A DNA stretch of 64,000 nucleotides from Vicinamibacterales bacterium. GTDB taxonomy: Bacteria > Acidobacteriota > Vicinamibacteria > Vicinamibacterales > UBA8438. The translations under genes and the position numbers were made by a program. Below, in pieces: positions 1,337-35,202 of the stretch. Where the stretch lies: NCBI GenBank assembly GCA_958296065.1, contig CATQHX010000010.1, positions 186,001 through 250,000 of the forward strand, read 5' to 3'. The notes under the pieces are model-generated. The model made no database searches. It was not told the DNA's origin and was given only the letters and a program-made list of their open reading frames with translations. Each line of letters begins with the position of its first letter. The stretch's first letter is position 1.

Positions 1337-1340
1337 CTAG

Positions 1341-11935: not shown

Positions 11936-11939
11936 CTAG

Positions 11940-12077: not shown

Positions 12078-12081
12078 CTAG

Positions 12082-12221: not shown

Positions 12222-12225
12222 CTAG

Positions 12226-12365
12226 CGAGGCTCCGCCTCAGACCCACAAGCATGTAGGTTGAGTTTGCTCCGCAACCGGCACGCTGAGAATTGGAATAGG
12301 GAGAAGATAGAGCGACCAAAACCTGAACTTGACTCATCTGTAAAGATGCCGGCCAGTCAAGGATT
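12226..12365 (+). repeat. 140-bp miniature CTAG element, copy C
   Basis: Third array copy, directly abutting copy B with a 144-bp period, ending at CTAG 12366-12369. Immediately afterwards comes a CRISPR-repeat-like sequence. Confidence 0.9.
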
Positions 12366-12368
12366 CTA

Positions 12369-12395
12369 GGGTTCATCCCTGCCTGCTCGGGGTGC
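12369..12395. other. Orphan CRISPR-repeat-like sequence (degenerate)
   Basis: GGGTTCATCCCTGCCTGC followed by TCGGGGTGC resembles the type I-E repeat consensus with mismatches in the stem. No second repeat or spacer-sized interval follows, so it is not an array. Confidence 0.35.
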
Positions 12396-12520
12396 CGTCG
12401 GCGTCCGAGATTGGACAAGCGTTCCGGTCCAAAGTCGTCCTTCGGGATGGTGTTCGCGGTTTCCGCTTCGTCGGCGAAACGCGTTTCGCACTTCGTTGGT
12501 GCTCGTGTTCCTGGATCTGC

Positions 12521-17634: not shown

Positions 17635-18117
17635 GTGAAGCCCAGCTGGAACAAGGTTCGAGCCGCTCACGGACCGGCGCTGGCCCGCATCATCGCGAGC
17701 TACGCCCCGCCCGGCCCTGACCGCGAGGACCTCGCACAGGAGGTGGCCTTGGCGCTGGTGCGGGCGCTGCCGGCCTTCCGCGGCGAGGCCTCGCTACGGA
17801 CCTACGTGCTGCGAATCGTGCACAACGTCTGCCTGCGCCAAGTCATGCGTCATCGGCGGTGGAAGCTCGATCCGATCGAGGAGGTCGCCGACCCGACAGC
17901 GTCACCGGAGCGAAGCGCGATGCAGCGTGAGAACGAAGCGCGGTTGGTGGCGGCGACCCGGAGACTCCCGGTAGGGCTCCGCCAGGTCCTGACGCTGTCA
18001 CTCGAAGAGCTTCCGCACTGCGAGATCGCCGACGTGCTCGGCATCACGGAGAACGCGGTCGCTATCCGCATGCACCGGGCGCGCCGGCTGCTCAAGACCC
18101 TGTTGGAGGAGCGATGA
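17635..18117 (+). CDS. ECF-type RNA polymerase sigma factor
   Basis: The 160-aa product from GTG 17635 has a sigma-70 region 2 (DREDLAQEVALALVRALPAF, GEASLRTYVLRIVHNVC) and region 4 (LPVGLRQVLTLSLEELPHCE, IADVLGITENAVAIRMHRAR). Upstream sequence is IS debris, so the GTG is the first sensible start. The next gene, a four-helix membrane protein, overlaps it by ATGA, the usual layout for an ECF sigma factor and its membrane-bound anti-sigma. It lies 0.9 kb ahead of a kinase/FHA/phosphatase gene run, which it may control, but no promoter motif was found to show this. Confidence 0.85.
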   Translation: MKPSWNKVRAAHGPALARIIASYAPPGPDREDLAQEVALALVRALPAFRGEASLRTYVLRIVHNVCLRQVMRHRRWKLDPIEEVADPTASPERSAMQRENEARLVAATRRLPVGLRQVLTLSLEELPHCEIADVLGITENAVAIRMHRARRLLKTLLEER

Positions 18118-18692
18118 GTGAAGAACTGGATATGGGGGCCCTGTGCCGCGAGTGGAAGGAAACCGACATGAAGACTATCGAAATGGCTCTGGAGACCGGA
18201 AAGCTGCGCCGAGAGGTCACCTGGACCTTTGTCGTGATGGCCGCGATCGCACTGTTGGCTGGAGGTAGCCTGTTCCGGCTCGTCTTCGCGGCTTCGACGC
18301 CCTGGACTACGCTACTGTCGGGTGTGATCGTTGTCGGTGTGAGTCTGGCACTGTTCCTGAGGTTTTTCCGTCGTCAGTGGCTTGCGGTGCGCGCCGCTGA
18401 CGCACTGCTGACCGGCACGCCGACCGAACTGGTCCGGGGCCGTCAGGCACTGATCGAGGTCGAGCTCTACGCCTGGACCGGCCGATCCGCCCGGTTCGCC
18501 GAGCTGCTGATCGGGCCGGTCGGGATTCTGTTCGCGACCGCTTGGTGGTGGATCGGCACCCTGTCAGTGTGGTTTCCCGTCGCTCTCGCGCTCGGCCTGG
18601 TGTCCTTCTCGGCCTACGGCCGGTTGCACCGGATTCCACGGCTGCGCCGGGAAATCGCCGAACTGGACGCTCTGGTCGCCACGCTTGTATAG
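18114..18692 (+). CDS. Membrane protein, candidate anti-sigma factor
   Basis: The 192-aa protein begins with a short cytoplasmic helix region (residues 1-35, including LCREWKETDMKTIEMALETG), then hydrophobic segments near 38-58, 62-82, 120-140 and 145-165. The gene overlaps the sigma-factor stop codon, so translation is coupled. A soluble N-terminal helix followed by membrane segments fits an anti-sigma factor, yet the canonical zinc-binding HxxxCxxC motif is absent. The role is therefore inferred from position. Confidence 0.65.
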   Translation: MSEELDMGALCREWKETDMKTIEMALETGKLRREVTWTFVVMAAIALLAGGSLFRLVFAASTPWTTLLSGVIVVGVSLALFLRFFRRQWLAVRAADALLTGTPTELVRGRQALIEVELYAWTGRSARFAELLIGPVGILFATAWWWIGTLSVWFPVALALGLVSFSAYGRLHRIPRLRREIAELDALVATLV

Positions 18693-19056
18693 CCCGCCTC
18701 CAGGCCCAGCAGCCTGAGGCGGAAGTCTCCACGTTCACTCGTATGGGCGGAAGGCGGCGATGGCGCGGTGTCCCGTGTGTCTGGTCCGCCCAGCAGGTTG
18801 GGCGGCCGCTGGCTCCAGGGGCTCTCGCCGTGACCATGACCGGCGGAGTTCGGTGCGGAATCCGCCGCCCTTTCCATCGGGAGGCACTCGAGTCGCGGCT
18901 CGTCGTTCCGCACGTCGCCACGCCATGTCTGGCGAACCCCGGCGAGGCGCCGCGCCGCGGCCCGCGCCTTGCACTCGTCGTCGTGCGCCACCAATGCGGT
19001 GTCGCCCGATCGCAGGGTCCGCATCGCCGGCAGCGTGCTGACGTAGAATCGCGCGT
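18693..19056. other. Intergenic stretch before the kinase cluster
   Basis: About 360 bases with no convincing gene. It presumably contains the promoter for the kinase operon, but no clear -35/-10 pair or ECF promoter was identified. Confidence 0.45.
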
Positions 19057-20745
<1,689 letters not shown>

Positions 20746-20802
20746 TGCCTGACAACGAAATCCGTCCCTGACAGGCAAGGCTGTAATAGACTGGCTTGCG
20801 TC

Positions 20803-21567
20803 ATGTTCGGCGCGAACGAGCTGCACCACCGTCTCGCCTCGTGGGCCGTGTCTGCGGCTTGCGCGATCGGCTTCATCGGCATGATGAGCCTGCTCCTGAC
20901 GGACGGCCGAGTCGCCGCCTTCCTGCTCGACCGCAACTCGACGGTCTTCGACTACCCCTTCACCATCCAGAACCTGATGTGGCTGATCTTCTTCGGGGCG
21001 CTGGCCGAGGTCGCCGTGCGCCACCGGCGCGCTCGTGTCGAGTCGCTACAGCTCGACGAGGGCCTGCTGCCCGAGGACGACGAGACGATGCTGCGGCTGC
21101 GGGACCTCGGCGCGATTCGCACTCGCGTCCGGGGGCAGGAGGACTTCTTCCTGCAACGACTCATCTCGCGCTGCATCCTGCAGTTCCAGAGCGCGCAGTC
21201 TACCGACCGCGCCAACGCGCTGCTGAACTCGTCGCTTGACCTAATGCAGCACGAGGTGGACACGAAGTACAGTCTGCTCCGCTATCTGGTGTGGGTGATT
21301 CCGACCGTCGGCTTCATCGGCACCGTGGTCGGCATCGCTGCGGCGTTGGACCAGGCGGGGGCCGCCGACGACTTCCAGGACCCGGCGCTGCTGGGCGAGC
21401 TCACGCGCAGCCTGGGGGTGGCCTTCTACACGACGATGCTGGCTCTGGTGCAGTCGGCGTTGCTGGTGCTGGCGCAGAACGTCACGCAGGCCAGCGAGGA
21501 AAGCGCGTTGAACCGGGCGGGCCAGTACTGCCTCGACAACCTGATCAACCGGCTCTACGAGAAGTGA
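20803..21567 (+). CDS. MotA/TolQ/ExbB-family proton-channel-like protein
   Basis: The 254-aa protein has a first membrane helix pair (about 13-35 and 48-70) and the signature C-terminal part: LVWVIPTVGFIGTVVGIAAA at about 165-185, then SLGVAFYTTMLALVQSALLV at about 205-225. That is the conserved core of MotA/TolQ/ExbB stators that couple proton flow to work. A dedicated MotB/TolR/ExbD gene is not adjacent, though the vWA protein at 27251 begins with a single TolR-like membrane anchor that could be its partner. It sits 11 bases before an FHA gene, so expression is surely shared with the signalling genes. Confidence 0.85.
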   Translation: MFGANELHHRLASWAVSAACAIGFIGMMSLLLTDGRVAAFLLDRNSTVFDYPFTIQNLMWLIFFGALAEVAVRHRRARVESLQLDEGLLPEDDETMLRLRDLGAIRTRVRGQEDFFLQRLISRCILQFQSAQSTDRANALLNSSLDLMQHEVDTKYSLLRYLVWVIPTVGFIGTVVGIAAALDQAGAADDFQDPALLGELTRSLGVAFYTTMLALVQSALLVLAQNVTQASEESALNRAGQYCLDNLINRLYEK

Positions 21568-21578
21568 AAGGCGTGGCG

Positions 21579-22223
21579 ATGCCCGTGTATCGAACCCCGG
21601 ACGGTCGGATCGTCGAGGAGAGGACCACCGTGAAGCCGCCGGGTGCCGGCCGCGACCGGAAGGCTAAGGACGCAGGGTCCGGCCGTGACGAGCCGCCCGC
21701 GCGTCCCGAGGGTGGCGGCGCTGCGCCGGAGACAGGACGCCGGCGCGCGGCATACACCCACCCGACGGTCGTCCGGCGACCCGGTGGGACGACCGGCAGA
21801 CAGGCGGCCCGCGACGACCAGCGCACACGGCTCGCCGGAGCCGTTCCTGCTGATGCGGCCGGCGCGGAGGAGACCGATCCGGTGGCGGGCTGGCTCGTGA
21901 TCGTCGAAGGGCCGGGCGCGGGACGGGACCTGCGGATCGGCGTGGGCCGCAACGATCTCGGTCGGGACGGCGACAACCGCATTGCGCTGCCCTTCGGCGA
22001 TACGCGGATATCGCGCCGGAAGCATCTGTGGGTCAACTACGATCCCCTGAACCGGGCATTCTCCGTCGCCCCGGGCAACAGCACGAACCTGGCGTACCTG
22101 AACGACGCTGCGATCGAGGAAGGGATGCCGCTCGCCGACGGTGCCACGATCACCGTCGGTCGGACGATATTGCGCTTTGTGGCGTTCTGCGGCGAAGGTT
22201 TCGCATGGCCCGATGCCGACTGA
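21579..22223 (+). CDS. FHA-domain protein
   Basis: The 214-aa product starts at ATG 21579. Residues 1-100 are a disordered, Arg/Pro/Gly-rich linker. Residues about 105-205 form a forkhead-associated domain, with IGVGRNDLGRDGDNRIALPF, the ISRRKHLWV stretch (Ser-Arg-Arg-x-His), GNSTNLAYLND and LADGATITVGRTILRF. FHA domains bind phosphothreonine, so it is a likely reader of the neighbouring kinases. The expected Asn of the NGT motif is NST here, placed as usual. It overlaps the start of the phosphatase gene by 11 bases. Confidence 0.85.
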   Translation: MPVYRTPDGRIVEERTTVKPPGAGRDRKAKDAGSGRDEPPARPEGGGAAPETGRRRAAYTHPTVVRRPGGTTGRQAARDDQRTRLAGAVPADAAGAEETDPVAGWLVIVEGPGAGRDLRIGVGRNDLGRDGDNRIALPFGDTRISRRKHLWVNYDPLNRAFSVAPGNSTNLAYLNDAAIEEGMPLADGATITVGRTILRFVAFCGEGFAWPDAD

Positions 22224-23256
22224 CTTCCTGCCGCTCGATATCGGCTCCGCGGCGCGCGCCTTGGTACTGGTCATCGCCGCCGCAATCAGTCTGTTGGCGC
22301 TGTCCATTCTGGCGCAGATCCCCGCGGTGGTTCTGATGTGGTGGCTGCGGCCGCAACCGGCGTACAACAGGCCGGAGGCGCCAGCCGGCGGCGGGTCTGC
22401 GATGTCGAGGGCCGCGCCGACGGACGCCGCCCGTATGCGCCTGCGCCGCGGCGGCGGGCAACTCGTAGGCAAACGCGAGATCCAGGAAGACGAGCTCGGC
22501 TTCATCGACGGCCCGACCCTCGATCCCGGCGGCCAGCATCCGGTAGTGGTCGTGGCGGACGGTATGGGCGGACATGCAAGCGGCGAGTTGGCGAGCCGGC
22601 TCGCGGTGCGCGCGTTCGTCGAGGCGTACGGCACGGAAGGCCGGCCGGCGGATCGGCTGCGGGCGGCGCTCGACCGCTCCAACCAGGCGATAGACGACGC
22701 GATACGGGACAACCTGTCGCACGACGGCATGGGCACCACGCTGGTGGCGGCGGCGGTCACGGCGGACGGCCTCGAATGGATCAGCGTCGGAGACTCCCCG
22801 CTGTACCTCTGCCGCGACGGTCGGCTGAAGCGCCTGAACGAGGATCACTCGATGGCCCCGGTGATAGCGGCCATGCGCGAGATCGATCCGGCGACGGCCA
22901 GGAGCATGAACCCGAACGAACTCCGCTCGGCGCTTGTCGGTTTCGCGCTCACCAAGGTGGACGCCTCGCCGATGCCGGAACTGCTGAAACCGGGCGACCT
23001 GATCCTGCTGGCGAGCGACGGCCTGAACACGCTGGACGAAGGTGAGATGGCCTCGCTCATCGCCACACGCCGCGGCGATGGGCCGGAGGCGGTGAAGGAC
23101 GCTCTGCTCGCGGCGGTCGCGGCGCAGGACGTGCCGGCGCAGGACAACGTGACGGTGGCGCTGATCGAGGCGCCTGGCGCGACGGGAGCGCCCGGCGCGT
23201 CGGGGTGCGCCCGGTGCGACGGGACCGCCGGAGTGCCGGTAGCATCGGGAGTCTGA
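22213..23256 (+). CDS. PP2C-family Ser/Thr phosphatase, membrane-anchored
   Basis: From ATG 22213 the 347-aa product starts with a membrane helix (about 15-45, LVLVIAAAISLLALSILAQI). The PP2C catalytic domain (about 75-320) shows the metal-binding VVVADGMGGHASGELASRLA, GMGTTLVAAAVTADG, SVGDSPLYLCRDGRL, LILLASDGLNTLDEGEM and DNVTVALIE motifs. The N-terminal metal residue motif is in NQEDE-like form KREIQEDELG. It should dephosphorylate the kinases' targets and switch the pathway off. A Gly/Ala/Pro-rich tail of about 20 residues ends it. It is 8 bases from the next FHA gene. Confidence 0.9.
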   Translation: MPTDFLPLDIGSAARALVLVIAAAISLLALSILAQIPAVVLMWWLRPQPAYNRPEAPAGGGSAMSRAAPTDAARMRLRRGGGQLVGKREIQEDELGFIDGPTLDPGGQHPVVVVADGMGGHASGELASRLAVRAFVEAYGTEGRPADRLRAALDRSNQAIDDAIRDNLSHDGMGTTLVAAAVTADGLEWISVGDSPLYLCRDGRLKRLNEDHSMAPVIAAMREIDPATARSMNPNELRSALVGFALTKVDASPMPELLKPGDLILLASDGLNTLDEGEMASLIATRRGDGPEAVKDALLAAVAAQDVPAQDNVTVALIEAPGATGAPGASGCARCDGTAGVPVASGV

Positions 23257-23263
23257 GGAGCGG

Positions 23264-24232
23264 ATGTCGAACGTAACGCGGTCGATTTCGGCCCGCCGCA
23301 TTGCCCGCATCGTCGTCGCGGCATGCATCGTTCTCGGCGTCGCGTGGGACGCCGTCCCGGCCCAGCCCGGTGCATCGACGGTCGACGAAGACATGGTGCG
23401 CGCCGTCGCCACTGCTGCCGAGATTGCAGCACAGCGGGACACGGAGGCGCGCGAGGCGCAGGCGGCGGCGAACGCGGCGTTGGAGGAAGCCGCCGAGGCG
23501 CAGGCGCGGGCCGATGCCGCCCTGGACCGTGCCCAGGCCCTGGAGGCGCAAGCGAACGCCACACAAGCCGAGCGGGACGCGGCGCGTGCGGAAGCCGAGA
23601 CCCTGCGGGCAGAAGCCGCGGAGAAGGAAGCCGCCCGGGTCGCCCTGGAGCAGCGAGCTGATACCGCCCTGGAGCAGGCGCGGGAGGCCCAGGCGCGGGC
23701 GGCGACTCTCGAGCGACAGTTGGTGCAGGAGCAACGGCATTTCTACTTGGCGCTCGTCGCCGCATCCCTGGCGCTGCTGGCGGTGATCCTGGTCGCGTGG
23801 CGCTTCGCGAGCCGCCGCCGCCTCGAGTTGGCGGCATCGGAGGCGGCGCGCCGGGCCAGTGAGGAACAGCTTGCCGCCGCGGTCACCGCTGCGCCGTTCT
23901 CCTGCCTGCTGGAGGGGACCGACACGAACGGTCGCAGCGTCGTGGTCAAGATCGGCGCCGAGCAGCTCGGGTCGCGCGACGGAATCGTAGTCGGCCGCAA
24001 CCCGGCTCAGGCGGGCGTGGTCCTCGACCACCCGGAGGCGTCGCGCGAGCATTTCCGGCTGGCCGCAACGGGCCGGAGCATCTCCATCGTGGATCTGCAT
24101 TCCACGAACGGCACCTTCGTGAACGGAACCGAGATCGAGCCCGACAAGGCGACCGTGCTCTCCTCTGGAGACGAGATCCGCGTCGGGGCCGCGATACGCC
24201 TGACCGTGTCGATCGACCGGGTCGCGCCGTGA
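23264..24232 (+). CDS. Coiled-coil membrane protein with C-terminal FHA domain
   Basis: The 322-aa protein starts behind TGAGGAG. It has a signal-type N-terminal hydrophobic stretch (ARIVVAACIVLGVAWDAV), an Ala/Glu/Arg-rich coiled coil (about 45-155), a membrane helix (about 163-185, FYLALVAASLALLAVILVAW), and an FHA domain (about 220-318) with IVVGRNPAQAG, EASREHFRLA and STNGTFVNG. Topology would place the coiled coil in the periplasm and the FHA domain in the cytoplasm, so it could pass an envelope signal to the kinase/phosphatase pair. It overlaps the start of a decayed vWA gene by GTGA. Confidence 0.85.
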   Translation: MSNVTRSISARRIARIVVAACIVLGVAWDAVPAQPGASTVDEDMVRAVATAAEIAAQRDTEAREAQAAANAALEEAAEAQARADAALDRAQALEAQANATQAERDAARAEAETLRAEAAEKEAARVALEQRADTALEQAREAQARAATLERQLVQEQRHFYLALVAASLALLAVILVAWRFASRRRLELAASEAARRASEEQLAAAVTAAPFSCLLEGTDTNGRSVVVKIGAEQLGSRDGIVVGRNPAQAGVVLDHPEASREHFRLAATGRSISIVDLHSTNGTFVNGTEIEPDKATVLSSGDEIRVGAAIRLTVSIDRVAP

Positions 24233-24783
24233 AGCCAACCCGCCGGGAGATCAGCATCCTTCAGCGTGTCGGCGATCGATCTGACCGAGGACGCGGCCGT
24301 CGGCGTCATCGATTTCAAGGACGGATGTGGCCGGCAGCCGGCCTTGCGCATCGCACCGATCCAGCGCATCGACCGGCAGTCGGTGCGGCGGCTGGCGGCG
24401 TTCGCGCGGTCGATGCGCCCCGGCTCGGCGGCCTGGAACGTAACGGTGGACGAGGACTACGCCGAGGCCTTGCGGGCGGCCGTCAACGCAGACTGGCGGC
24501 AGGGCAGTGAGCACCGCTCGATCGTCATGATCTCCGACAACCCGGCGCACGCCAACGCGCGGCAGCAAGCCATCGCTGACGTCGGCGCTTCGCGGGCCGC
24601 CCTAGCGCCCGGCACACTGTCTCGGCGGTCTTTGTCGACACGAGCTTGACCGCCGGTTCCGGCTACCCGGACGCGGCAGCGTTCATTCGCCGCGTGGCCG
24701 GGCCGGCGGCGGCCACTTTGTCCGCGCGGATGAGAACGCGTCGCTGTCGGCGACGATCCCTGCGGGCCATCTTCGAGGACTGA
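24229..24783 (+). pseudogene. Decayed vWA-domain gene with internal deletion
   Basis: It begins like the intact vWA gene at 27251 (GTG, KPTRRE) but has an extra C that shifts frame, then jumps from SAID-L directly to TEDAAVGVIDFKDGCG, losing about 515 bases that encode the membrane anchor, coiled coil and the metal-ion DxSxS site. The deletion endpoints share the short sequence CGAYCTG in the paralogue. Further frame changes appear near 24585, before the ending that still resembles RADENASLS. The gene is dead, and its place just behind the FHA gene suggests the vWA module was once the end of this operon. Confidence 0.8.
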
Positions 24784-24976
24784 TTCGCCTAACTGCCCCG
24801 AAAATGAACGACCCTCCCCGCGGTCCACACATCGCAGCGCTCGTCCCGGCCCCGACCCCTCCGCCGAGCGCAGGCCCGTTGCCAGTTTCCGCCGATGGAT
24901 GGCGCGGTTGGAGGTGGAGTGATAGCGATGTGGCTAGATGGCGCGGTTGAAGGTCGAGTTGTAGAATCGGGACGCC

Positions 24977-27175
24977 GTGACAGCGCATCAACATCCGGCC
25001 GCGCTGCCGAAGGGCCACCGCATCGGCGAGTACGAGATCGTCCGCGTGCTCGGCGCGGGTGGCTTCGGCATCACGTACCTGGCGTTCGACCACCAGTTGG
25101 ACGGACCGGTCGCGCTCAAAGAGTACTTTCCCGCCGAGGCGGCAAGGCGCGAGTTCGGATGGGGCGTCGCCCCGTCAAGCACGGGGAGCAAAGCGCTCTT
25201 CACCTGGGGCCTCGACCGTTTCATCGACGAGGCTCGGTCCCTCCATCGCCTTCGACACGCGAACGTCGTGCGGGCGCATCGCTACGTCCAGGCCTACGGC
25301 ACCGCGTACATCGTCATGGAGTACGTCGAGGGCGAGTCCCTGCAGCAGATCCTCCGGGTGCGCGACCGGCTGACGCCCGACGCTTGGCGGCGATTGCTGG
25401 ACCCGTTGATCGACGGGCTGGCCCACGTGCACGGCCACGGCTACCTGCACCGCGACATCAAGCCCGCGAACATCATGATTCGCGCCGCGGACGGGGCTCC
25501 GGTGCTGATCGACTTCGGCGCCGCGCGTGTGGCCGCCCGGGGCCGGACGCACACTCAGGTGCTGACGCCGGAGTACGCCCCGCTGGAGCAATATTCGCGC
25601 GAGGGAACGCAGGGACCGCCCACCGACATCTACGCCCTGGCCGCGGTCTCGTACCGCGTGCTGACCGGCGAGCGGCTGTCGAGCGCCCCGGACCGGGTGC
25701 TTGACGACGATTACGAGCCCCTGGCGAACCGCATCGCCGGCGCGAACCACCGGTGGCTGGCCGCCATCGACCATGGACTGGCGTTGCGGCCGGAGGACCG
25801 GCCCCAGACGGTCCCGGTATGGACTGCGGCGATGCGCGGCGCCCGCACCGCGCCCGTACCGAACGTCGATGCCGGGACCGACCGCAGCAGGAACGCCGCG
25901 CGGGCCTCCGCACCTCTGCAGGACGCTCCGGCCGCATCCGGCCGCTCCTCTCTGTCGTTGAGGCACTGGGGGTGGGTCCCGGTCTTAGTCATTCTTTTTT
26001 TCCTCGACGCCATCACGAGTGACCCGCCGGATCGAAATCCTGCCAGCGTCTCGGGCGAGAATGACCCAAGCGCGGACCGGCCGCAACGACCCGGTGCATC
26101 CGAGCCCCCGACGCGAGCGACCGCGCAAGCTCCGACGAGCAGAAGTACGCCGAGATCGCTTCCGGTCTCATCACCGGAAGCCGGCGAAGCCAGACTGGGG
26201 CTCGATCGGTCAGCCAGGCGGCTGATCCAGCGAGGGCTGCGCGCCGACGGATTTGATCCTGGCTCCGTCGACGGGTTGTTCGGACCGGCGACACGCGCGT
26301 CGCTGCGGGCGTGGCAGAGCTCCCGCGGGCAGGCGGCAACTGGCTATCTGAACGGCCAGCAGGTGGCGGAACTCCGGGATTCTGCACGTCGCCAGCAGCA
26401 GCGATCCGCCGCATCGACACCCGCAAACCGATCGACCGCACCAACTCCGACAGACGGAAGTACCTCGAACCCATCGCCCTTGATCTCAGCACCTGAGGGA
26501 TGGCCACCGGCACCCAGCCCCAAGGTAGCAAACGGAAGGTCGTTCACGCGCGGTTCACATCAGGATGACGTCCTCCGCCTGCAGGGCACGCCGACCAGCA
26601 TCAACCGGTACCCATCCCTGGGGCACGAAACATGGCGCTACGGATCCAGTTCCGTGACCATCTCGACCCGATCACGCCACGTCATCGAGTGGGCGAATCG
26701 CGGTGGCAACCTCAAGGTGCAACTGGCGCCGGGCCGTAACGGGACGAACGCGACATCGTTCACGCGCGGTTCACATCAGGATGACGTCCTCCGCCTGCAG
26801 GGCACGCCGACCAGCATCAACCGGTACCCATCCCTGGGGCACGAAACATGGCGCTACGGATCCAGTTCCGTGACCATCTCGACCCGATCACGCCACGTCA
26901 TCGAGTGGGCGAATCGCGGTGGCAACCTCAAGGTGCAACTGGCGCCGGGCCGTAACGGGACGAACGCGACATCGTTCACGCGCGGTTCACATCAGGATGA
27001 CGTCCTCCGCCTGCAGGGCACGCCGACCAGCATCAACCGGTACCCATCCCTGGGGCACGAAACATGGCGCTACGGATCCAGTTCCGTGACCATCTCGACC
27101 CGATCACGCCACGTCATCGAGTGGGCGAATCGCGGTGGCAACCTCAAGGTGCGACAGGCGCCCGCCGGTCGATGA
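24977..27175 (+). CDS. Transmembrane Ser/Thr kinase with peptidoglycan-binding-like domain and triplicated repeat
   Basis: This 732-aa protein (GTG start) has a kinase domain (about 16-290; GAGGFG, VALKEYF, HRDIKPAN, IDFGAARV, GPPTDIYALAAVSYRVLTG) with all catalytic residues. A membrane helix (about 333-350, WVPVLVILFFLDAI) is followed by a Pro/Ser/Thr-rich linker and a peptidoglycan-binding-like segment (about 410-465, RRLIQRGLRADGFDPGSVDG). Residues 522-732 are three copies of a 72-aa unit (SFTRGSHQDDVLRLQGTPTS, WRYGSSSVTIS) that resembles the small BamE/SmpA-like repeats of other extracytoplasmic proteins. It is a plausible envelope sensor. Its vWA neighbour follows 75 bases later. Confidence 0.88.
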   Translation: MTAHQHPAALPKGHRIGEYEIVRVLGAGGFGITYLAFDHQLDGPVALKEYFPAEAARREFGWGVAPSSTGSKALFTWGLDRFIDEARSLHRLRHANVVRAHRYVQAYGTAYIVMEYVEGESLQQILRVRDRLTPDAWRRLLDPLIDGLAHVHGHGYLHRDIKPANIMIRAADGAPVLIDFGAARVAARGRTHTQVLTPEYAPLEQYSREGTQGPPTDIYALAAVSYRVLTGERLSSAPDRVLDDDYEPLANRIAGANHRWLAAIDHGLALRPEDRPQTVPVWTAAMRGARTAPVPNVDAGTDRSRNAARASAPLQDAPAASGRSSLSLRHWGWVPVLVILFFLDAITSDPPDRNPASVSGENDPSADRPQRPGASEPPTRATAQAPTSRSTPRSLPVSSPEAGEARLGLDRSARRLIQRGLRADGFDPGSVDGLFGPATRASLRAWQSSRGQAATGYLNGQQVAELRDSARRQQQRSAASTPANRSTAPTPTDGSTSNPSPLISAPEGWPPAPSPKVANGRSFTRGSHQDDVLRLQGTPTSINRYPSLGHETWRYGSSSVTISTRSRHVIEWANRGGNLKVQLAPGRNGTNATSFTRGSHQDDVLRLQGTPTSINRYPSLGHETWRYGSSSVTISTRSRHVIEWANRGGNLKVQLAPGRNGTNATSFTRGSHQDDVLRLQGTPTSINRYPSLGHETWRYGSSSVTISTRSRHVIEWANRGGNLKVRQAPAGR
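26540..27152 (+). repeat. Three tandem 216-bp repeats inside the kinase gene
   Basis: Units begin at 26540, 26756 and 26972 with a 216-bp (72-codon) period and appear identical in DNA as well as protein. The third unit diverges only at its end (AAGGTGC then CGACAGGCG). Identity at silent sites implies recent amplification. Confidence 0.95.
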
Positions 27176-27250
27176 GCACACCATCGCTCGCGGATACGCG
27201 ATGAGTAGCATGGCGATTGGCCGCACGCCGTCGACCGACCAGGGGACGCC

Positions 27251-28318
27251 GTGAAGCCGACCCGCCGGGAGGCCAGCATCTTCAGCGTGTCGGCGATCGA
27301 CCTGTTCGCGTCGGCGCTCGGGGCCTTCATCGTCGTCGCGTTAGTGCTGCTGCCCTACTTCCCCAACACCGGCGACGCCCCTCCGGCCGGCGCGGACCCG
27401 CCGGTCGACCCGTCGTCCTCGCTTGGCATCTCGCCCGCCGAAGTCGAGGCGCTACGCGCCCAGGCGGCGCGGGCCGAGGCCGCCCTGGCCGAGGCGGAGC
27501 GGCGCGGGCGCGATCTGTCGGAGGCGCTGGAAGCGGCCCGAGCGCAGGCGTCGGCGCCCGCACCGACGCTGGCGAACCCCATCTCGCCCGCCGAGGTGGC
27601 AGCGCTCCAGGACCGGGTAGTGCGTTCGGACGCGGAGCTGCAGGCGGCGCGCGCCCGCGAGCGCGAACTCGCGCGGGCGCTCGACGCCGCGAAGTCGTCG
27701 GTCCGGACGCTACCGCCGATTGATCTCGTAATCGCCCTCGACACGACCGCGAGCATGACAGGCGAGGTGGCGAGCCTGCGCGAGGAAATCGCGGGCCTTT
27801 CCGCCCTCCTCGCCGACCTGACCGACGACGCGGCGGTGGGCATCATCGACTTCAAGGACGGCTGCGGGGGGGCGCCGGCCCTGCGCATCGCCCCGCTCCA
27901 GCGCATCGACCGGGAGTCCGTGCGCCGGCTGGCCGTCTTCACCCGTTCGATGCGTCCCGGTTCGCCGCGCTGCAACACGACTTCCGACGAGGACTTCGCC
28001 GAGGCGTTGCGCGCGGCCGTCGACGCCGACTGGCGCCCCGACAGCGAGCTCCGGTCGATCGTCCTGATCTCCGACAACCCGGCCCACGCCTATTCCCGGG
28101 AGCAAGCCGTGGCCGACGCCCGGCGCTTCTCGCGTGGCCCCGGCGCCCGGCACACCGTCTCGGCCGTGCTCGTCGACACGAGCGCCTTCGCCCCGACCTA
28201 CCCCGATACCGCGGCGTTCATGCAGCGCGTCGCCCAGGCGGGGGGCGGGCAGTTCGTCCGCGCCGACGAGAACGCGTCGCTGTCGGTGACGATTCTGCGC
28301 GCCGTCTTCGACGGCTGA
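27251..28318 (+). CDS. Membrane-anchored von Willebrand A-domain protein
   Basis: The 355-aa product (GTG start) has one N-terminal membrane anchor (about 17-38, FASALGAFIVVALVLLPYF), like the TolR/ExbD layout, then a Pro-rich linker and a coiled coil (about 60-150), and a vWA domain (about 158-350). The metal-ion site reads DTTASM (DxTxS), with GIIDFKDGC and LISDNPAHAYSREQA beyond. It should bind a protein partner through the metal site. The position after a membrane kinase, and an anchor resembling those that pair with ExbB-like channels, hint that it works with the channel protein of the cluster. It stops 34 bases before the convergent operon's end. Confidence 0.85.
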   Translation: MKPTRREASIFSVSAIDLFASALGAFIVVALVLLPYFPNTGDAPPAGADPPVDPSSSLGISPAEVEALRAQAARAEAALAEAERRGRDLSEALEAARAQASAPAPTLANPISPAEVAALQDRVVRSDAELQAARARERELARALDAAKSSVRTLPPIDLVIALDTTASMTGEVASLREEIAGLSALLADLTDDAAVGIIDFKDGCGGAPALRIAPLQRIDRESVRRLAVFTRSMRPGSPRCNTTSDEDFAEALRAAVDADWRPDSELRSIVLISDNPAHAYSREQAVADARRFSRGPGARHTVSAVLVDTSAFAPTYPDTAAFMQRVAQAGGGQFVRADENASLSVTILRAVFDG

Positions 28319-28352
28319 CACGGCGCGCCTTCTCGGCTCCGCCCGGTCCGGG

Positions 28353-29843
28353 TCACTCCGTCGGCTCCAACGGCAACCACCCCAGTCCTTTCTCTGCCTT
28401 TTCCGCCGGGGCTGCCGGCTCCCCGGCTGCTTCGGGCACCTCGTCCGCCGGGACCGACTCCGACTTATCCGCCGCGGCTGCCCGCTCCCCGGCTTCTCGG
28501 CGCACCCGGCCCGCCCGCGCCGTCCCTGGCTTCTCCGCCGCCGCTGCGTGCTCGCCGGCTGCTACGGCAGGCTCTCCGGCTTCTCCGGACACCTCGCCCT
28601 CGCGGGTCCTCGTTGCAGGACCCGTGATCTTCGCCAGCGACAGCTTCTCGCCGCACCACCACGAATGCTCCTCCCCGGCGTAACGCATGGGGGCCACGCG
28701 CTGATGTCCGGCGAAGCAACCCAGCAGCCACAGCGATTCGCGGACCGACCGGAAGTCGATCCCCGCAGCGATGAGCTCCCGAGCCTCGTTCCTCAACGCC
28801 TGCAGATCAACGGCCTCGTGCCATCCGTGGAACAGCTCCTTCCACCGGCAGAAGATGACCAGCGACCGAAAGCCGGACGGAAAGAGGCCGGGAGCGGCCT
28901 CCTCGAGGGCCGCGGCCAGACTCGCGACCTCAGCATCGCCCACGACATCCGCCAGCGTCGAGATGTCCGAGCGCCGGTCGAGCACTCCGCGCACGACCTC
29001 GCGGCACCGCTCGACGCCGTCCGACTGCTCCGGCCACGACAGCTTCTTCAGCACCTGGCCCGAGTCGATGAGGTAGTCGATGGCCCCGTAGTCGTACGGA
29101 TCGTGCCGCGTGAACCGATACGCGGCCGGAATCCAGGTCGCGGCGGTCTCCTCATCGATGTCCTGACCCTCCTGTCGATCGAGTTGACGAATCGCCGCTT
29201 CAACGGCGGCCTGCAACTGTCGTTCGCCATCGTCCCCCACGGGTTCGCCGGCGCCCTTCTCATCCGCGCGATCGTCATCGCCGAACAGCAAGCGACACAG
29301 CGCTTGGCCGCCGGCGATGGCGTTCTCGACGTTGCGCCGCGACCACTGCTCCAGTACGGGACCCTCGAAACGCGGTCGATCCAGCGCCACGCCGAGAGAC
29401 CGCATCCTGGGCTCCAGAATCCTCTTCGCCCGCCCCGTCGTCGGGATGACTTTCCGGACGTCGCCGACGCGGACTTCGATGACCTTCTCTCTCCTCGAGA
29501 CCGCCTGCCGCGGCTCCAGCTCCAGAATCACGACGCCTTCCTGGTCGTCCAGCATCAACTGCGGCAGGCTCTCCAGCAGATCCGGGACCCGCTTCTTCGC
29601 GGAGGCGGAAGGCCTGCCGTCAGCTTTCATCTTCAGCGGCACCACACGATCGCGGGGAATCTGGCCGCGGCCGTAGTGATAGAGAGACTGAAACTCCCCG
29701 TATGTCACGCCGACGAACCGGTGCGGGCCTGCTGTCGGCCTGCGCCGGTCGGTTCCTTCGGAAGACACGCGAGATTCCTTCTTCGGCACGCTTGGTCCTT
29801 CAGAGGAACAGTTCCTGTTGCGGCGCCTCTCCCGAGTCCCCAC
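28353..29843 (-). CDS. Unknown protein of the kinase-Hsp70 operon
   Basis: The 496-aa reading frame is the last gene of the minus-strand operon and overlaps the helicase gene's end by 44 bases; an internal GTG could be the real start. The N-terminus is Arg/Ser-rich. Residues about 40-100 (RFVGVTYGEFQSLYHYGRGQ, IPRDRVVPLKMK) and 100-370 look globular, with acidic helices and a tryptophan-rich block (WKELFHGWHEAVDLQALRNE, WLLGCFAGHQRVAPMRYAGE). The last about 100 residues are Ala/Glu/Pro low-complexity. No known domain is recognised. Its role must be inferred from the helicase and kinase-Hsp70 partners. Confidence 0.65.
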   Translation of the reverse strand: MGTRERRRNRNCSSEGPSVPKKESRVSSEGTDRRRPTAGPHRFVGVTYGEFQSLYHYGRGQIPRDRVVPLKMKADGRPSASAKKRVPDLLESLPQLMLDDQEGVVILELEPRQAVSRREKVIEVRVGDVRKVIPTTGRAKRILEPRMRSLGVALDRPRFEGPVLEQWSRRNVENAIAGGQALCRLLFGDDDRADEKGAGEPVGDDGERQLQAAVEAAIRQLDRQEGQDIDEETAATWIPAAYRFTRHDPYDYGAIDYLIDSGQVLKKLSWPEQSDGVERCREVVRGVLDRRSDISTLADVVGDAEVASLAAALEEAAPGLFPSGFRSLVIFCRWKELFHGWHEAVDLQALRNEARELIAAGIDFRSVRESLWLLGCFAGHQRVAPMRYAGEEHSWWCGEKLSLAKITGPATRTREGEVSGEAGEPAVAAGEHAAAAEKPGTARAGRVRREAGERAAAADKSESVPADEVPEAAGEPAAPAEKAEKGLGWLPLEPTE

Positions 29844-30966
29844 TCCGGGGCCGCTCGCACTCCACGTGGTGTAAAAGCCGATCCGGAATGTCCCGCACGT
29901 ACGGGTGCAACTCCCTTCCGTGGTACGACAGGAACAGGTTCCGCCGACTCCGCGTCAGGCCCACGAACAACAACCGCCGGGCGATGGCCTCGTCGTCCTT
30001 CCAGAAGGTCCGCCGCCCGGTCAGCCCCGGCAGGAACACCGTTTCGAAGTCCAGCCCCTTCGCGCTGTGGTAGGTCATCACATACGAGATCGAGCGACGA
30101 TCCGATTCATCGAGACTGCCGTGTCCGCTCCCCAGATACTGCAGCGGAACCCCGTCGCGCTGCAGGGCCTCGTTCACGGCGTCGTAGTCCTTCCCCTGGA
30201 ATCGAGGCTCCGGCGCGCCCGTCAGGCGGCACACCGCCCGCAGGAAGCGACGGATGTCCTTGCGCGTCGAGAACAGCGCGGCCGCCGGCTTTCCCACGCG
30301 GCTGTATCTGCTCAGCCTTTCCCACAACCACTCGGTCTCCCGCTCCGCGGTCTCCGCGTGCGCCAGCGTGACCTCGACCTCCTGCATGCGCGCCGTCGTC
30401 GCACCTTCGAGCCGGGACCCCGGCACGACGCAGCACGCGATGTCCCTGATCCTCTGCGTGAGGCGGTAGAGGGTCTCCAGCGAGACGATGTCCGGGTCGA
30501 GGAGGTCGAGACAGTCCCGAATCTCGCTCTCGGTGCTGCACTTGTCGTAAATCGACTGGTCGGTGTCACCGGCCGCCACGACGCGGCCGGCCAGCGCCCG
30601 GATTCGGCGCAGGTCGGCGGCCGGAATGTCCTGCACCTCGTCGAGCAGGATCCAGTCGTACCTTCGACCTTCATGCAAGAGTTGGTAGTAGGTCATGACG
30701 GGTGTGCGCCCGGCGAGATGCCGGCCCAGACCGCTCGCTATCAGGTCCTTCAGCGCATGCGTGTAGGTGGCGAGACAGATGCTCGCCTCGTCGTGCTCCG
30801 CCAGGATGCGTTCGGCCAGATGCACGAGCAGCACCGTCTTCCCGGTGCCCGCGAAGCCGCGAATCCAGTGGTTGCGCCGGTGGCGGGGGTCGACGACGGC
30901 GCCGCAACGCCGCAGCACATCCAGTTGCTGCTCACCCATCTTCCGTTCCGGCGGCTTCCAGTTCAT
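29800..30966 (-). CDS. Short superfamily 1 (UvrD-like) helicase/ATPase
   Basis: At 388 aa it is far shorter than UvrD or Rep. Recognisable motifs: RGFAGTGKTVLLVHLA (Walker A), WILLDEVQDIP (Walker B), VVAAGDTDQSIYD (III), TYHSAKGLDFETVFLPG (V) and RRLLFVGLTRSRRNLFLSYH (VI). The accessory 1B/2B insertions are largely missing. Its ATG overlaps the stop of the kinase-Hsp70 gene by ATGA and it overlaps the next gene too, so the three products are made together. Conflict or stress-response systems often carry such stripped SF1 ATPases. Whether it unwinds DNA or RNA is unknown. Confidence 0.85.
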   Translation of the reverse strand: MNWKPPERKMGEQQLDVLRRCGAVVDPRHRRNHWIRGFAGTGKTVLLVHLAERILAEHDEASICLATYTHALKDLIASGLGRHLAGRTPVMTYYQLLHEGRRYDWILLDEVQDIPAADLRRIRALAGRVVAAGDTDQSIYDKCSTESEIRDCLDLLDPDIVSLETLYRLTQRIRDIACCVVPGSRLEGATTARMQEVEVTLAHAETAERETEWLWERLSRYSRVGKPAAALFSTRKDIRRFLRAVCRLTGAPEPRFQGKDYDAVNEALQRDGVPLQYLGSGHGSLDESDRRSISYVMTYHSAKGLDFETVFLPGLTGRRTFWKDDEAIARRLLFVGLTRSRRNLFLSYHGRELHPYVRDIPDRLLHHVECERPRSGDSGEAPQQELFL

Positions 30967-33900
30967 CGTTCGATCTGTTCGGCGCCGGCCGTATTTCGGC
31001 TATGGATGAGCCCGCGGTTGGGACTCGCGGCCAGGACCTCCGGGCGGACCGGGTCGTCGTCAATCCGCCACCGCTTTCGATACTCGCGAACGTGCTCGAG
31101 AGTCCGTCGTTTGCCGAGCGTCCTCGCGTTCTGCTCTAGCAAGGCGCAATCGTCTTCCGTCAGGCTCTCCTTTGCGAGTTCCTCCTCCAGGATGTCGAAG
31201 GCTCGCGTTACGCACTCCAGCCCGCGGGGATCACCGTCGTCGCGCAGGGCATGGCCGTGAACCGTCAGGGCAGGGACGAAGTCCGGATCCAGCCGGAGCG
31301 ACCCCTCCATCAGACGTGCGCAGGCTTCCATGTCGCCGCGTCGCCGCTCGTCGATTGCGCAGTTGTAGGCGGTCACGCAGCTCGGCGCCCGCTGATGCGC
31401 CTTGAGCGACCACTCGCGGGAACGTCGGTAGTCCCCGGATCGCGCGTAGCTGTAGGTAATGCTGACGGCGTGGTCGCTGTCCGGATCCAGCCGTTCCGCC
31501 GCCTCGTACATCTCCGCCGCCTCCCGCCATCGGTGGGCCTTCTGGGCAGCACGCGCGAATGTCAGCACCGCCGCTGTAGCGGGACGACCCTTCCCGGCGA
31601 GAATCGAGGCGTTCAGCGCCTGTCTCGCCTGGAGCAGACGCCGCCCGCCGGGCAACAGCTCGGCGTTCGCCAGCGGATTCAGGATCTCCGAGGCGACGGC
31701 GGCGCCCCCGGCGTGGACCCTGACGACGAGGAGCTTGTCCCGGGAGATGTGGGACGAAATGCGGATGGTCTCCCCCTTCTCGAACCAGCCGGGGGGCGAC
31801 GGCGGCGGGACCGTCAGCACCGCCAGTATCTTGTCGCGTCCGCCGACGCAGAACGGCAGCTCCACGCGGGTCTGCCGTTCCTTCCCCACCGTCACCGACG
31901 TGATGGCGGTCGGCGACGGGACCGGAGAGCCGGCGTCGATCACCATTTCCTGCGTGATGGTGGCTGAGGACGGGACATCAGAGCCGGCGTCGATCACCCC
32001 TTCCTGATTGTCGTCCCGCGTCAGAACGTAGATGGGCTCGCTCGTGATCGGACGGACGATATCGTGCCCGAGCCCGTGGAGATACAGGGAGTGTATGGCG
32101 GCGCCCTGCGAGACGTGAGCACGAAGGTCGCAAGGCGTCACGCACTCGACGAAGCGGCCCATGTGCCTCTCGATCGCGCCGCGTACGAGGGAATTCGCGC
32201 TGCTGCCGCCGATGAACAGCACCATGTCGAGGTCGTCAGGCGTCAGCCCCGCCTTCTCCAGGGCGCTCGAAACGGGCTCCAGGACGCTCGGCGTGCGGTC
32301 CAGGCGGTCCTCGCCGGGCGACGCCGGGGCGGCGAGAAACGGCTCCATGATCTCCGCGAACTCGCCGAGGGTGATCTGCGGCTCGTCGAGGGTCCAAGAC
32401 CTGCCCCGCACCTCGATAACGTCGATGCCATCGGCCACGATCGGATCCGTGCACTCACGGAGGTCGGACGGATCGCCGGCGCCCCGCGCCTCGGCCTGTT
32501 TCGAGCACTGGATCTTCAGCTCCTCGGCGGCGTGCTTCAGACGGGGCAGCAGCAGCTTGTCTCGTTCGTTAGACGAGATGACCTCGTCCGGGTCGCCGTC
32601 GCCACGGAGCTGGGGCAGGAGAATACGCTTGGCGATGGCCCGATCGATGTCGTCGCCTCCGAGGGCGAGGAACTTCGAGATCGCCAGATTCCTGGAGGAG
32701 AGCCGCCCGTCCGCGATGCTGACCTCCAGCACCGAGATGTCGCACGTGCCGGCGCCGAAGTCGAAGACGAGCACGCGGCCCGCCTTCCGCGCGAGGAGCG
32801 CCGACACGGATGGACCCTCGGCGCCGCGCTCCATGTCGAACACGTAGCTGAGAAACGCCGCGTTGGGCTCGTCGATGAGACCGGTGTCCTCGACGGGGAT
32901 GCCGGCGCCGGCGAGCGCCCGCACGAGGTCGCGGCGCTGGTTGGCCTCGAACGCGGCGGGAACGCTGACCGCGTACACCGGCGGGGGCAGCGAATGATCC
33001 AGGACGTGCCGGTCCACGGCCTCACGCAGGTGATGCAGGAAGACCCTGGCGGCGTCCTGCGGCCGTTCGACCACCACCGGCGCGCGCCCCTCGGCGAGCA
33101 CCGTGTTGGGATACTGGGGGCCGAGGTCGACCCCGAGTTCCATCTTGAAGGACGACCAGAGATCCACTCCCTCCCGCAACGTCGCCCTCAGGTGCGGCGT
33201 CACGCCGCGGCCCACGAGCAGACGGCCGTTGCGCCAGGCGAGACAGCTCGGCACGAGATGGTCGTCGTGGCGTCTGTCTTCCTCGTCGAGCTGGGGAACG
33301 GAAAGCGGTTCGGCCCTGGGGACGCGACCTCCATCGTCCATCCGGACGATGCTGACCACCGTCGTCGACGTCCCGAAGTCCATGCCCACGAAGGTCTGCC
33401 GGGCCAGGTTCCCGCGGAGGGCCTCTGCGTCGCCGGCCAGATTCGTCACGGAAACACCCGCCGCCTCGTCGGGCGCGCGGTCGGGGCCGTCCGCGCCCGC
33501 CATGGCCGATCGCCACGCCGACACGGTCCGGGGCCGGTCGTCGGGCCGCAGCGCCATTCCCCGGTCAATCGCCGCGAGCCACCGAAGATCCGCCCCCGCG
33601 ACCCGCTCCGCAAGCGACTCGTACCGGTCGTCCACGGCCCGTACCGGCGCTTCCGGCGCGCACTCGCCGGTCAGCGCGCGGTACGAGACCGCCGCCAGCG
33701 CGTAGATGTCGGTGGGCGGCCCCTGCGCGCCCTCGGTCCCGTGCTGCTCGATGGGCGCATACCGCGGCGTCAGCACCTGGGTGTGCGCCCGGCCGCGCGC
33801 CGCCGCGCGCGCGGCCCCGAAGTCGATGAACACCGGCTCGCCGTTCGCCGCGCGAATCACGATGTTCGCGGGGGTAATGTCGCGGTGCACGTAGCCGTGT

Positions 33901-34358
33901 CCGTGCACATGCTCCAGCCCGTTGAGCAGCCGGTCCAGCCATTGCCGCCACTCGGCGACCGGCAACGGCGCGCGGATTCGCAGGACGGCGTCCAGCGACT
34001 CGCCCTCGACGTACTCCATCACGATGCAGGCCGTGCCGAGCGCCTCGACGTAGCGATGCACCCGCACCACGTTCGGATGCCGGAACCGATGGATCGACCG
34101 CGCCTCGTCCAGGAAACGGTCGAGACCCCAGGTGAAGAGCGCACGGCTCTCCTCCGCTGGCAACGCGGCCACGCGCTGGTCCGCGGTCCGCTCAGCGTGT
34201 TCGTGCGGAAAGTATTCCTTGAGCGCGACCGGTCCGTCTAGTCTCGTATCGTTCGCGAGATAGGTGATGCCGAAGCCGCCGGCGCCCAGCACGCGGACTA
34301 TCTCGTACTCCTCGATCCGGTAGCCCGGCGGCAGGGCGCGGGCGCACGTCTCGGGCAC
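30963..34358 (-). CDS. Ser/Thr kinase-Hsp70-TPR fusion protein
   Basis: The 1131-aa product (GTG 34358) joins three parts. Residues 15-290 are a Hanks-type kinase of the same subfamily as the two plus-strand kinases (GAGGFG, Lys47, DFG 179-181), but its catalytic loop reads HRDITPAN, with Thr162 where Lys is usual. Residues about 322-830 are an Hsp70-type actin-fold ATPase: VGMDFGTSTTVVSI (phosphate 1), VFDFGAGTCDISVLEV (phosphate 2), VLFIGGSSANSLVRGAI (adenosine). A short substrate-domain-like part and TPR-type helices (about 930-1070, ARAAQKAHRWREAAEMYEAA, DPDSDHAVSITYSYARSGDY) follow. It begins the operon with the small helicase. Activity could be reduced by the Thr162 change, though such HRDxxP variants exist in active bacterial kinases. 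Confidence 0.88.
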   Translation of the reverse strand: MPETCARALPPGYRIEEYEIVRVLGAGGFGITYLANDTRLDGPVALKEYFPHEHAERTADQRVAALPAEESRALFTWGLDRFLDEARSIHRFRHPNVVRVHRYVEALGTACIVMEYVEGESLDAVLRIRAPLPVAEWRQWLDRLLNGLEHVHGHGYVHRDITPANIVIRAANGEPVFIDFGAARAAARGRAHTQVLTPRYAPIEQHGTEGAQGPPTDIYALAAVSYRALTGECAPEAPVRAVDDRYESLAERVAGADLRWLAAIDRGMALRPDDRPRTVSAWRSAMAGADGPDRAPDEAAGVSVTNLAGDAEALRGNLARQTFVGMDFGTSTTVVSIVRMDDGGRVPRAEPLSVPQLDEEDRRHDDHLVPSCLAWRNGRLLVGRGVTPHLRATLREGVDLWSSFKMELGVDLGPQYPNTVLAEGRAPVVVERPQDAARVFLHHLREAVDRHVLDHSLPPPVYAVSVPAAFEANQRRDLVRALAGAGIPVEDTGLIDEPNAAFLSYVFDMERGAEGPSVSALLARKAGRVLVFDFGAGTCDISVLEVSIADGRLSSRNLAISKFLALGGDDIDRAIAKRILLPQLRGDGDPDEVISSNERDKLLLPRLKHAAEELKIQCSKQAEARGAGDPSDLRECTDPIVADGIDVIEVRGRSWTLDEPQITLGEFAEIMEPFLAAPASPGEDRLDRTPSVLEPVSSALEKAGLTPDDLDMVLFIGGSSANSLVRGAIERHMGRFVECVTPCDLRAHVSQGAAIHSLYLHGLGHDIVRPITSEPIYVLTRDDNQEGVIDAGSDVPSSATITQEMVIDAGSPVPSPTAITSVTVGKERQTRVELPFCVGGRDKILAVLTVPPPSPPGWFEKGETIRISSHISRDKLLVVRVHAGGAAVASEILNPLANAELLPGGRRLLQARQALNASILAGKGRPATAAVLTFARAAQKAHRWREAAEMYEAAERLDPDSDHAVSITYSYARSGDYRRSREWSLKAHQRAPSCVTAYNCAIDERRRGDMEACARLMEGSLRLDPDFVPALTVHGHALRDDGDPRGLECVTRAFDILEEELAKESLTEDDCALLEQNARTLGKRRTLEHVREYRKRWRIDDDPVRPEVLAASPNRGLIHSRNTAGAEQIER

Positions 34359-34919
34359 GACCTCGATCCTACTACGCGCGCCCGCCGGGCTGTTTCGGAC
34401 TCCGCCGCCGACTTCAATCAACCCAAATGTCTGCGATACCGACGAGAACGCGTCGCTCGGCGAATGGCGCCGACGCATGCCGCGCCGACGATGGGGCGGA
34501 CGCAGCGCCAGGTGTGGCAGGCTGCGTCTGCTCGGCGGCGCGCATCTGTTCAACCGGCGTTCTCGGACGAGAGCGTACGCCTGGACGTGCGGACGACTCT
34601 GCCGGTCACGGCGGCGCGTCTGCTCGACCGCATCTCCATCGGCGTTCCGGTGATCCGCGGCCCGGTGAGTTGCGATCTCAGGGGCGGTTCACCCGGCGCA
34701 ACGTTCTGCGAAGACTGCGGTAAGACGATGCGGCCCGGTGAGTTGCGATCTCAGGGGCGGTTCACCCCCCTGAATCGAGAACTGGGGCCATCGAACGGCC
34801 CGAACTGGGGTCATGGCATCGAAGTGCACCAGGGCCATGCTTTTCGGCCGATCAGGGCCATTGCATTGCACGGTGACCAGCGTGACCGCCGAAACGGCCT
34901 TCCCGCAGGGAAAAATACT
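34359..34919. other. Gene-free stretch with a direct repeat
   Basis: No gene is visible. A near-identical 36-bp segment (GCGGCCCGGTGAGTTGCGAT and following CTCAGGGGCGGTTCACCC) occurs at about 34658-34694 and 34729-34766. A short open piece between them (ATFCEDCGKTM) looks like a zinc-ribbon relic. At about 34785-34860 ACTGGGGYCAT motifs recur, similar to IS21-type end repeats. The promoter for the kinase-Hsp70 operon should lie near 34359-34450 but I cannot point to it. Confidence 0.5.
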
Positions 34920-34953
34920 GGGTGAGCGACCCCGGAACCGGGGTCGCTCACCC
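34920..34953. terminator. Strong 16-bp hairpin (possible terminator)
   Basis: GGGTGAGCGACCCCGG, a two-base AA centre, then the exact complement. No T-run follows on the plus strand, so it may be a structural repeat or terminator; it does not directly follow a gene. Bases 34954-35202 hold no gene. Confidence 0.5.
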
Positions 34954-35202
34954 CTCTTGCCTCCTCCTCGTGGTGTTGTTAGACCGTTGAATGCGCGGTG
35001 GGGTGCACTGGTGCGAGAAACCCCCAGTGTTTCCGGGCGCTTACGGTGTGTTCACGGTGAACAATCCACGCACTTTCGCCAGGCGGATCGACGGTCGGCG
35101 ATCGGTTGCAGGACCCTGCAATGAACTTGTTTACCTTGCCCAGATACGACTCATGCCGCTACTGTGTGGACATTGCGCAGCAAGGCGTGGTGTCATGGAG
35201 GC

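Follow-up and report, generated by a model that had tools for sequence, protein, structure and literature searches.

A putative stator cassette with its own kinases and phosphatase, probably joined recently to an Hsp70-helicase module in one acidobacterial genus

Does a locus in which a MotA/TolQ/ExbB-type channel, Ser/Thr kinases, FHA proteins, a PP2C phosphatase and a vWA protein face a kinase-Hsp70 fusion and a compact helicase work as one system, or does it bring together modules with separate histories? The question arises from two convergent operons of a Vicinamibacterales bacterium (Acidobacteriota, UBA8438), found in a window of 64,000 nucleotides of contig CATQHX010000010.1 (positions 186,001 to 250,000) within an assembly (GCA_958296065.1) of 6.5 Mb in 83 contigs. 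A first-pass annotation had read the whole locus as one undescribed signalling or conflict system. Our analysis points instead to a probable recent, lineage-specific join between a phospho-regulated stator cassette and a defence-type Hsp70-helicase module. The parts, the conservation of the cassette, the fusion and the co-inheritance can be read from the DNA itself. Domains were called on the locus proteins with Pfam as well as PADLOC and NCBIfam profiles, which gave the following features (positions within the window; TM, transmembrane helix; aa, amino acids; SF1, superfamily 1; ECF, extracytoplasmic function):

19057..20745, + strand: K1, cassette Ser/Thr kinase whose C-terminal part is Asp-rich (PF00069, 5e-37; cassette kinase clade)
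20803..21567, + strand: ExbB/TolQ-type channel (A subunit) with a MotA/ExbB domain (PF01618, 2e-12; AlphaFold/Foldseek; 53 relatives)
21567..22223, + strand: FHA1, cytoplasmic FHA protein (PF00498, 8e-6; conserved beside ExbB)
22213..23256, + strand: PP2C phosphatase with an N-terminal TM (open reading frame opens at 22141, ATG at ~22213; PF13672, 6e-14; DGMGG and DNxTV motifs)
23264..24232, + strand: FHA2, with signal/TM segment, coiled coil, TM and cytoplasmic FHA domain (PF00498, 9e-18; hydropathy)
24266..24783, + strand: remnant of a vWA gene, C-terminal and frame-broken (blastn, 24277-24783 against an intact vWA gene, 79%)
24977..27175, + strand: K2, kinase with a peptidoglycan-binding domain and 3 BamE-like repeats (PF00069, 5e-35; PF01471, 1e-10; PF04355, weak)
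27251..28318, + strand: B subunit, with a short N-terminus in the cytoplasm, a single TM bearing the invariant Asp17, and a vWA domain in the periplasm (vWA match, 1e-5)
28353..29843, - strand: orphan protein restricted to this genus (no family; 85% relative in sister species G184 only)
29800..30966, - strand: compact SF1 (UvrD-like) helicase, 388 aa, with the complete motif set (PF13361, UvrD_C, 2e-11)
30963..34553, - strand: K3-Hsp70-TPR, a cassette-type kinase fused to an Hsp70 ATPase domain with TPR (start somewhere from 34553 to ~34358; PF00069, 2e-30; PF00012, 9e-22)
24809..34964, both strands: co-inherited block over both operons (identity step against G184; right end beyond the G184 contig)
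17635..18692, + strand: ECF sigma factor and 3-TM protein, whose membership in the system is not established (sigma70 r2/r4; no relative at any cassette locus)

All the genes that the first-pass annotation had named are present, each with a significant domain match, and a few corrections were needed. K1 and K2 carry the HRD and DFG motifs of the active site. The vWA match of the B subunit falls just under the Pfam cut-off, and the protein contains DxTxS and further residues of the metal ion-dependent adhesion site type. The gene described as a decayed vWA gene is real, more exactly a C-terminal part with a broken frame, and in the kinase-Hsp70-TPR fusion the kinase and Hsp70 domains are significant while the TPR match is weak (1e-3, against a clear 1e-7 in a stand-alone relative). 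Compared with G184, the locus genes are constrained (ratio of nonsynonymous to synonymous divergence, dN/dS, 0.14-0.63), and the G184 copies have no stops. The tail of K1 has a run of ~20 consecutive Asp residues, and K2 has three near-identical tandem BamE-like repeats of ~72 aa each at 26500-27170, a number that varies among relatives and is far higher in one of them (G359).

The cassette extends well beyond this phylum. A scan of 85,000 species for ExbB found at least 53 loci across Pseudomonadota, Acidobacteriota, Gemmatimonadota, Bacteroidota/Rhodothermota and Latescibacterota, a lower bound because exact peptides were used. Gene content was counted with iterative profiles at the 37 loci flanked on each side by at least 4 kb, where a B subunit occurs at 34, FHA at 30-31, a kinase at 29, PP2C at 28, a trypsin-like-FHA protein at 22 and a vWA domain at 18; kinase, FHA, PP2C and B subunit occur all together at 23, and the genes lie nearly all on the same strand. 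In another genus of the phylum, ExbB copies 77% identical to that of the window are preceded by cassette-type kinases and followed by FHA1, PP2C, FHA2 and vWA; Hsp70, helicase and orphan genes are all absent from those loci. FHA2 occupies the position of the trypsin-FHA protein in other cassettes, and vWA stands directly after FHA2 at the g162 loci. On plasmids, ExbB was found in one Rhizobium record, and the 75 genes flanking cassettes are for the most part metabolic, with few defence matches. The cassette is a widespread chromosomal trans-envelope unit, apparently undescribed so far; our literature search found no account of it, a weak sign of novelty because most subscription papers fell outside that search. 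Culturable genera carry it (Pseudidiomarina, Alishewanella, Aliiglaciecola and Roseovarius), so it is open to testing.

Several variants and fragments accompany these loci. In the Pseudidiomarina cassette (L118:17291-19870), FHA domains are fused to a peptidase of the thermolysin type (PF02868, 1e-37), and profile similarity among loci revealed variant kinases with tails that, from their motif, we take to be like formylglycine-generating enzyme (FGE) sulfatase domains. The genome of the window has a second, decayed cassette piece (L141:8806-9466; B-subunit N-terminus, 91%, and a broken kinase), and G184 has a second partial ExbB (81%) and kinase cut by a contig end (L135:10001-10333). In G359 (L075 ~9588-14301), a trio resembling zorA-zorB-zorC by eye lies ~14 kb from the cassette.

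Flagella, nutrient uptake, gliding, division and Zorya defence all draw their power from ion-driven stators, and the A and B subunits of the cassette resemble the parts of such a machine. An AlphaFold model of the A subunit, built from 40 relatives, reached a pLDDT of 90, and its 50 best Foldseek matches in the PDB are all TolQ, ExbB, MotA or PomA (best TM-scores 0.60/0.68, with E values of only ~1e-3), in agreement with the MotA_ExbB domain match. The B subunit starts with ~11-13 residues rich in Arg/Lys, then FSxSALDLFASALGAFI, then a hydrophobic helix; the membrane Asp is kept in 54/54 relatives, which were gathered using the Asp-bearing N-terminal segment itself, and the C-terminal domain differs between relatives, being vWA in about half of them. 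The topology of the B subunit, its membrane Asp and its adjacency to the A subunit suggest that the two probably form an ion-driven stator, in which ions would flow through the ExbB-vWA complex.

The Hsp70-TPR protein and the compact SF1 helicase are a separate conserved pair. When the Hsp70-TPR part of K3 was compared with 396 genomes of the phylum, relatives were found in 8 other genomes and form a family distinct from DnaK (E 1e-24 to 1e-56). A short SF1 helicase (~400-420 aa) directly follows Hsp70-TPR in most of those loci (G227, G246, G244, G524 and G429, with a truncated helicase in G390), and the 4-base overlap of the two genes in the window recurs in several relatives. None of these stand-alone loci has a kinase on the Hsp70 or an ExbB nearby. 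The family was absent from the plasmids searched and, at a strict cut-off, from 398 genomes of the phylum of G553. In several genomes the pair neighbours DISARM-type, Dpd-type, type IIG or PDC-S01 genes, including DrmD (3e-283), DpdE (5e-96), a type IIG restriction enzyme (1e-175), an HKD-Snf2 protein and four PDC-S01 matches. Enrichment in defence islands, which the first-pass annotation had proposed as a check, applies to the Hsp70-helicase pair and not to the cassette with its mostly metabolic flanks. Matches of the compact helicase to GajB were set aside as generic UvrD matches. Among 50 other cassette genomes searched, the Hsp70 protein occurs in one, G543, as a frameshifted kinase-Hsp70 gene beside ExbB.

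The kinase domain ties the two modules together. K3 falls near K1 in a group of 16 cassette kinases from Acidobacteriota that has 100% support, in a quick tree where non-cassette kinases are represented by three of the window's own genome only. This placement agrees with the first-pass argument that the three kinases belong to one subfamily, and it indicates that the kinase part of K3-Hsp70 most likely derives from the cassette. The single-system claim fails outside the genus, yet the reasoning from the kinases proved correct and pointed the way to this fusion history. Matches of the kinases to MAD6, PD-T4-6, Mokosh and PglW were rejected as generic kinase matches; the curated model of MAD6, the MADS kinase, gave 128-135 bits against a cut-off of 460.

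Comparison with G184, where the operons converge just as they do in the window, indicates how the modules met. DNA identity is 74-81% for ExbB to FHA2, then ~91-94% from 24809 to 34964; the step at 24809 is sharp and lies just before K2, and 34964 is where the G184 contig ends. One core gene is 86% identical between the two genomes, and synonymous divergence is 0.12-0.27 inside the block versus 0.50-0.77 outside. Since identity in the block exceeds that of both the core gene and the rest of the cassette, the block, which is at least 10 kb and spans both operons (K2, vWA, orphan, helicase and kinase-Hsp70), appears to have moved as a unit. The step coincides in G184 with a mobile-type element and in the window with the broken vWA gene, which occupies the position that vWA holds in relatives, right after FHA2. 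That broken gene is probably the original vWA of the cassette, and the simplest reading is that K2, a new vWA, the orphan, the helicase and kinase-Hsp70 arrived as a unit that took over its role. The strongest argument for shared work in this genus is that the block holds two parts of the cassette along with the Hsp70-helicase pair. Joint inheritance of the two operons holds for close relatives, where the joint set is intact in G184 and broken in G543, and not for genomes outside the genus, where the modules are separate. Elsewhere in the window, at 1335-3189, an element codes for a 551-aa protein with no Pfam match that is 90.5% identical to the one abutting the block in G184.

Other genes of the region are less easily assigned. 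The orphan protein matched no family in Pfam, PADLOC or NCBIfam, and no PDB, plasmid, phage or viral relative; its fold prediction reached a pLDDT of only 39, with few relatives to build on, and weak matches in G182 and G140 were discarded because they lie opposite or inside unrelated genes. The ECF sigma gene ending at 18117 has a sigma70_r2 match of 3.5e-13, and its open reading frame continues in frame behind an unrelated upstream stretch. The first-pass annotation had noted this gene and the membrane anti-sigma candidate (18114-18692) ahead of the operon; the idea of a sigma/anti-sigma pair was rejected because neither recurs at related cassette loci. Tyrosine integrases at 255-1118 (-) and 50438-51691 (-) bracket the region, suggesting integrated mobile DNA. 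A HEPN AbiU2-type gene (15401-16678, +; PF18734, 7e-10) lies just upstream and is likely a defence or toxin gene in its own right, and at 12521-14731 (-) there is a long UvrD-family helicase (PF00580, 6e-80; GajB-like model, 2e-97) that is possibly housekeeping.

In the working we propose, the state of the stator would be set by the Ser/Thr kinases, reversed by PP2C and read by cytoplasmic FHA domains, which are tied to a periplasmic trypsin-like protease in most relatives and to a coiled coil in the window. An envelope signal would be felt through peptidoglycan-bound K2 and the vWA stator arm and produce a change in phosphorylation, with ion flow and the peptidoglycan contact of K2 either set by phosphorylation or setting it. 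FHA1 and FHA2 would read that phosphorylation in the manner of the FHA-vWA pair ArnA-ArnB (PMC6509490). In this genus, a cassette kinase has become fused to Hsp70, and the pair most simply came in with a fresh K2-vWA as one block. K3 would relay the signal to Hsp70-helicase, whose targets would be foreign nucleic acid or the complexes it forms with protein; this is the direction of signalling that we infer. A defence role for the joined locus is suggested by the neighbours of the helicase pair elsewhere, by the surroundings in the window (the HEPN AbiU2-type gene, UvrD helicase and two integrases) and by analogy to Zorya, and its function is perhaps Zorya-like envelope sensing. More tentatively, the stator could be an envelope sensor that directly drives the Hsp70-helicase effector via the shared kinase, which would make the locus an independently assembled Zorya-like anti-phage machine on an undescribed motor-phosphorylation cassette.

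Several findings weigh against this account. The joined locus is known in two intact copies, the window and G184, and the frameshifted G543, so the join may be short-lived. The B subunit has no Pfam match to MotB or ExbD, leaving its stator role to topology and the conserved Asp; given that result and relatives gathered with the same segment, we do not claim homology to MotB, ExbD, TolR or ZorB. K3 keeps the HRD motif and the Asp of DFG and has Thr instead of the catalytic-loop Lys (HRDIT), and K3 of G184 has DFA in place of DFG; the domain may have weak kinase activity or serve for docking. All three copies of the fused Hsp70 lack the Lys equivalent to DnaK Lys70, which 7/8 stand-alone relatives keep (LVGRGVTPHLRA in the window versus VGEGAKRLRA in most stand-alone relatives). 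This loss departs from a DnaK-type active Hsp70, and a role as switch or scaffold would fit better than a folding cycle. Finally, the helicase and orphan have high dN/dS values (0.63 and 0.53).

It is possible, though we doubt it, that the modules are neighbours without shared function: a housekeeping envelope cassette beside a defence-island Hsp70-helicase pair that gained a kinase domain by chance recombination in a region rich in mobile elements and now acts alone. Such a history fits the separability of the modules in 49/50 genomes, the two flanking integrases and the mobile-type element adjoining the block in G184, but leaves aside that the moved block, which displaced the old vWA, holds the cassette's K2 and vWA B subunit as well as K3-Hsp70, the helicase and the orphan, and that the K3 kinase domain is strongly constrained (dN/dS 0.14, window versus G184).

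The cassette is very unlikely to be a relative of Zorya or TerY-P that current profiles missed. Its ExbB does match ZorA weakly (22.7 bits, E=1e-5, over 89 residues), and kinase, PP2C and vWA make up the TerY-P trio. However, ExbB is only 254 aa and has no ZorA-length tail, the B subunit carries vWA rather than a peptidoglycan-binding domain and has no OmpA match, and none of the ten locus proteins has a PADLOC match to ZorC, ZorD or ZorE (among the matches listed, the best 25 for the kinases and helicase). The vWA protein is membrane-anchored, and Pfam, searched at E 0.01, shows neither a zinc ribbon nor an OB fold at the C-terminus of the kinases. Least credible of all is the first-pass reading of one ancient conserved system, which would account for the identical layout in G184 and the common kinase subfamily but is refuted as a conserved unit by the 49/50 other cassette genomes with no Hsp70 protein and by Hsp70-helicase pairs elsewhere with neither kinase nor ExbB.

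The recent join that we favour shares parts with several known systems. Hsp70 homologs are used in CoCoNuT and GTPase-centred conflict systems (PMC11090510, PMC7159879), and there too lost catalytic residues suggest binding rather than turnover; the window, however, has no McrB/McrC, GTPase or tubulin, and its Hsp70 carries a fused kinase and has a compact SF1 helicase as its partner. The FHA-vWA pairing recalls ArnA-ArnB of Sulfolobus, in which an FHA protein binds a phospho-regulated vWA protein (PMC6509490), although that pair is archaeal and has no channel. TerY-P triads, reported alongside CoCoNuT systems (PMC11090510), encode vWA, PP2C and a Ser/Thr kinase together, as does the window operon, which differs in its membrane-anchored vWA, its ExbB and FHA core, and kinase tails that are peptidoglycan-binding/BamE-like or other.

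Zorya shares the MotA/ExbB-class channel, a single-pass partner with a periplasmic domain and a helicase-type gene nearby, and its ZorAB is a 5:2 ion-driven motor requiring ion flow and peptidoglycan binding (PMC11890865). In the window, by contrast, the periplasmic domain is vWA, kinases, FHA and PP2C are added, ExbB is without the long tail, and the helicase is short, UvrD-like and paired with Hsp70, where that of Zorya is the SNF2 protein ZorD. With the ExbBD, TolQR and MotAB stators the cassette shares the fold and conserved pore-helix motifs of the A subunit as well as a B subunit with a short N-terminus and an Asp in its TM, the layout common to MotB, ExbD, TolR and ZorB; structure-alignment identity is only 13-19%, and no sequence match to MotB, ExbD or TolR was detected for the B subunit. 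Beside these stators, a family whose B subunit bears a vWA domain, and which brings along a kinase, a phosphatase and readers of phosphopeptides, would be one governed by protein phosphorylation, and the lineage of the window may illustrate how such a cassette can be wired to a defence-type effector pair, through a kinase fused to the effector's chaperone.
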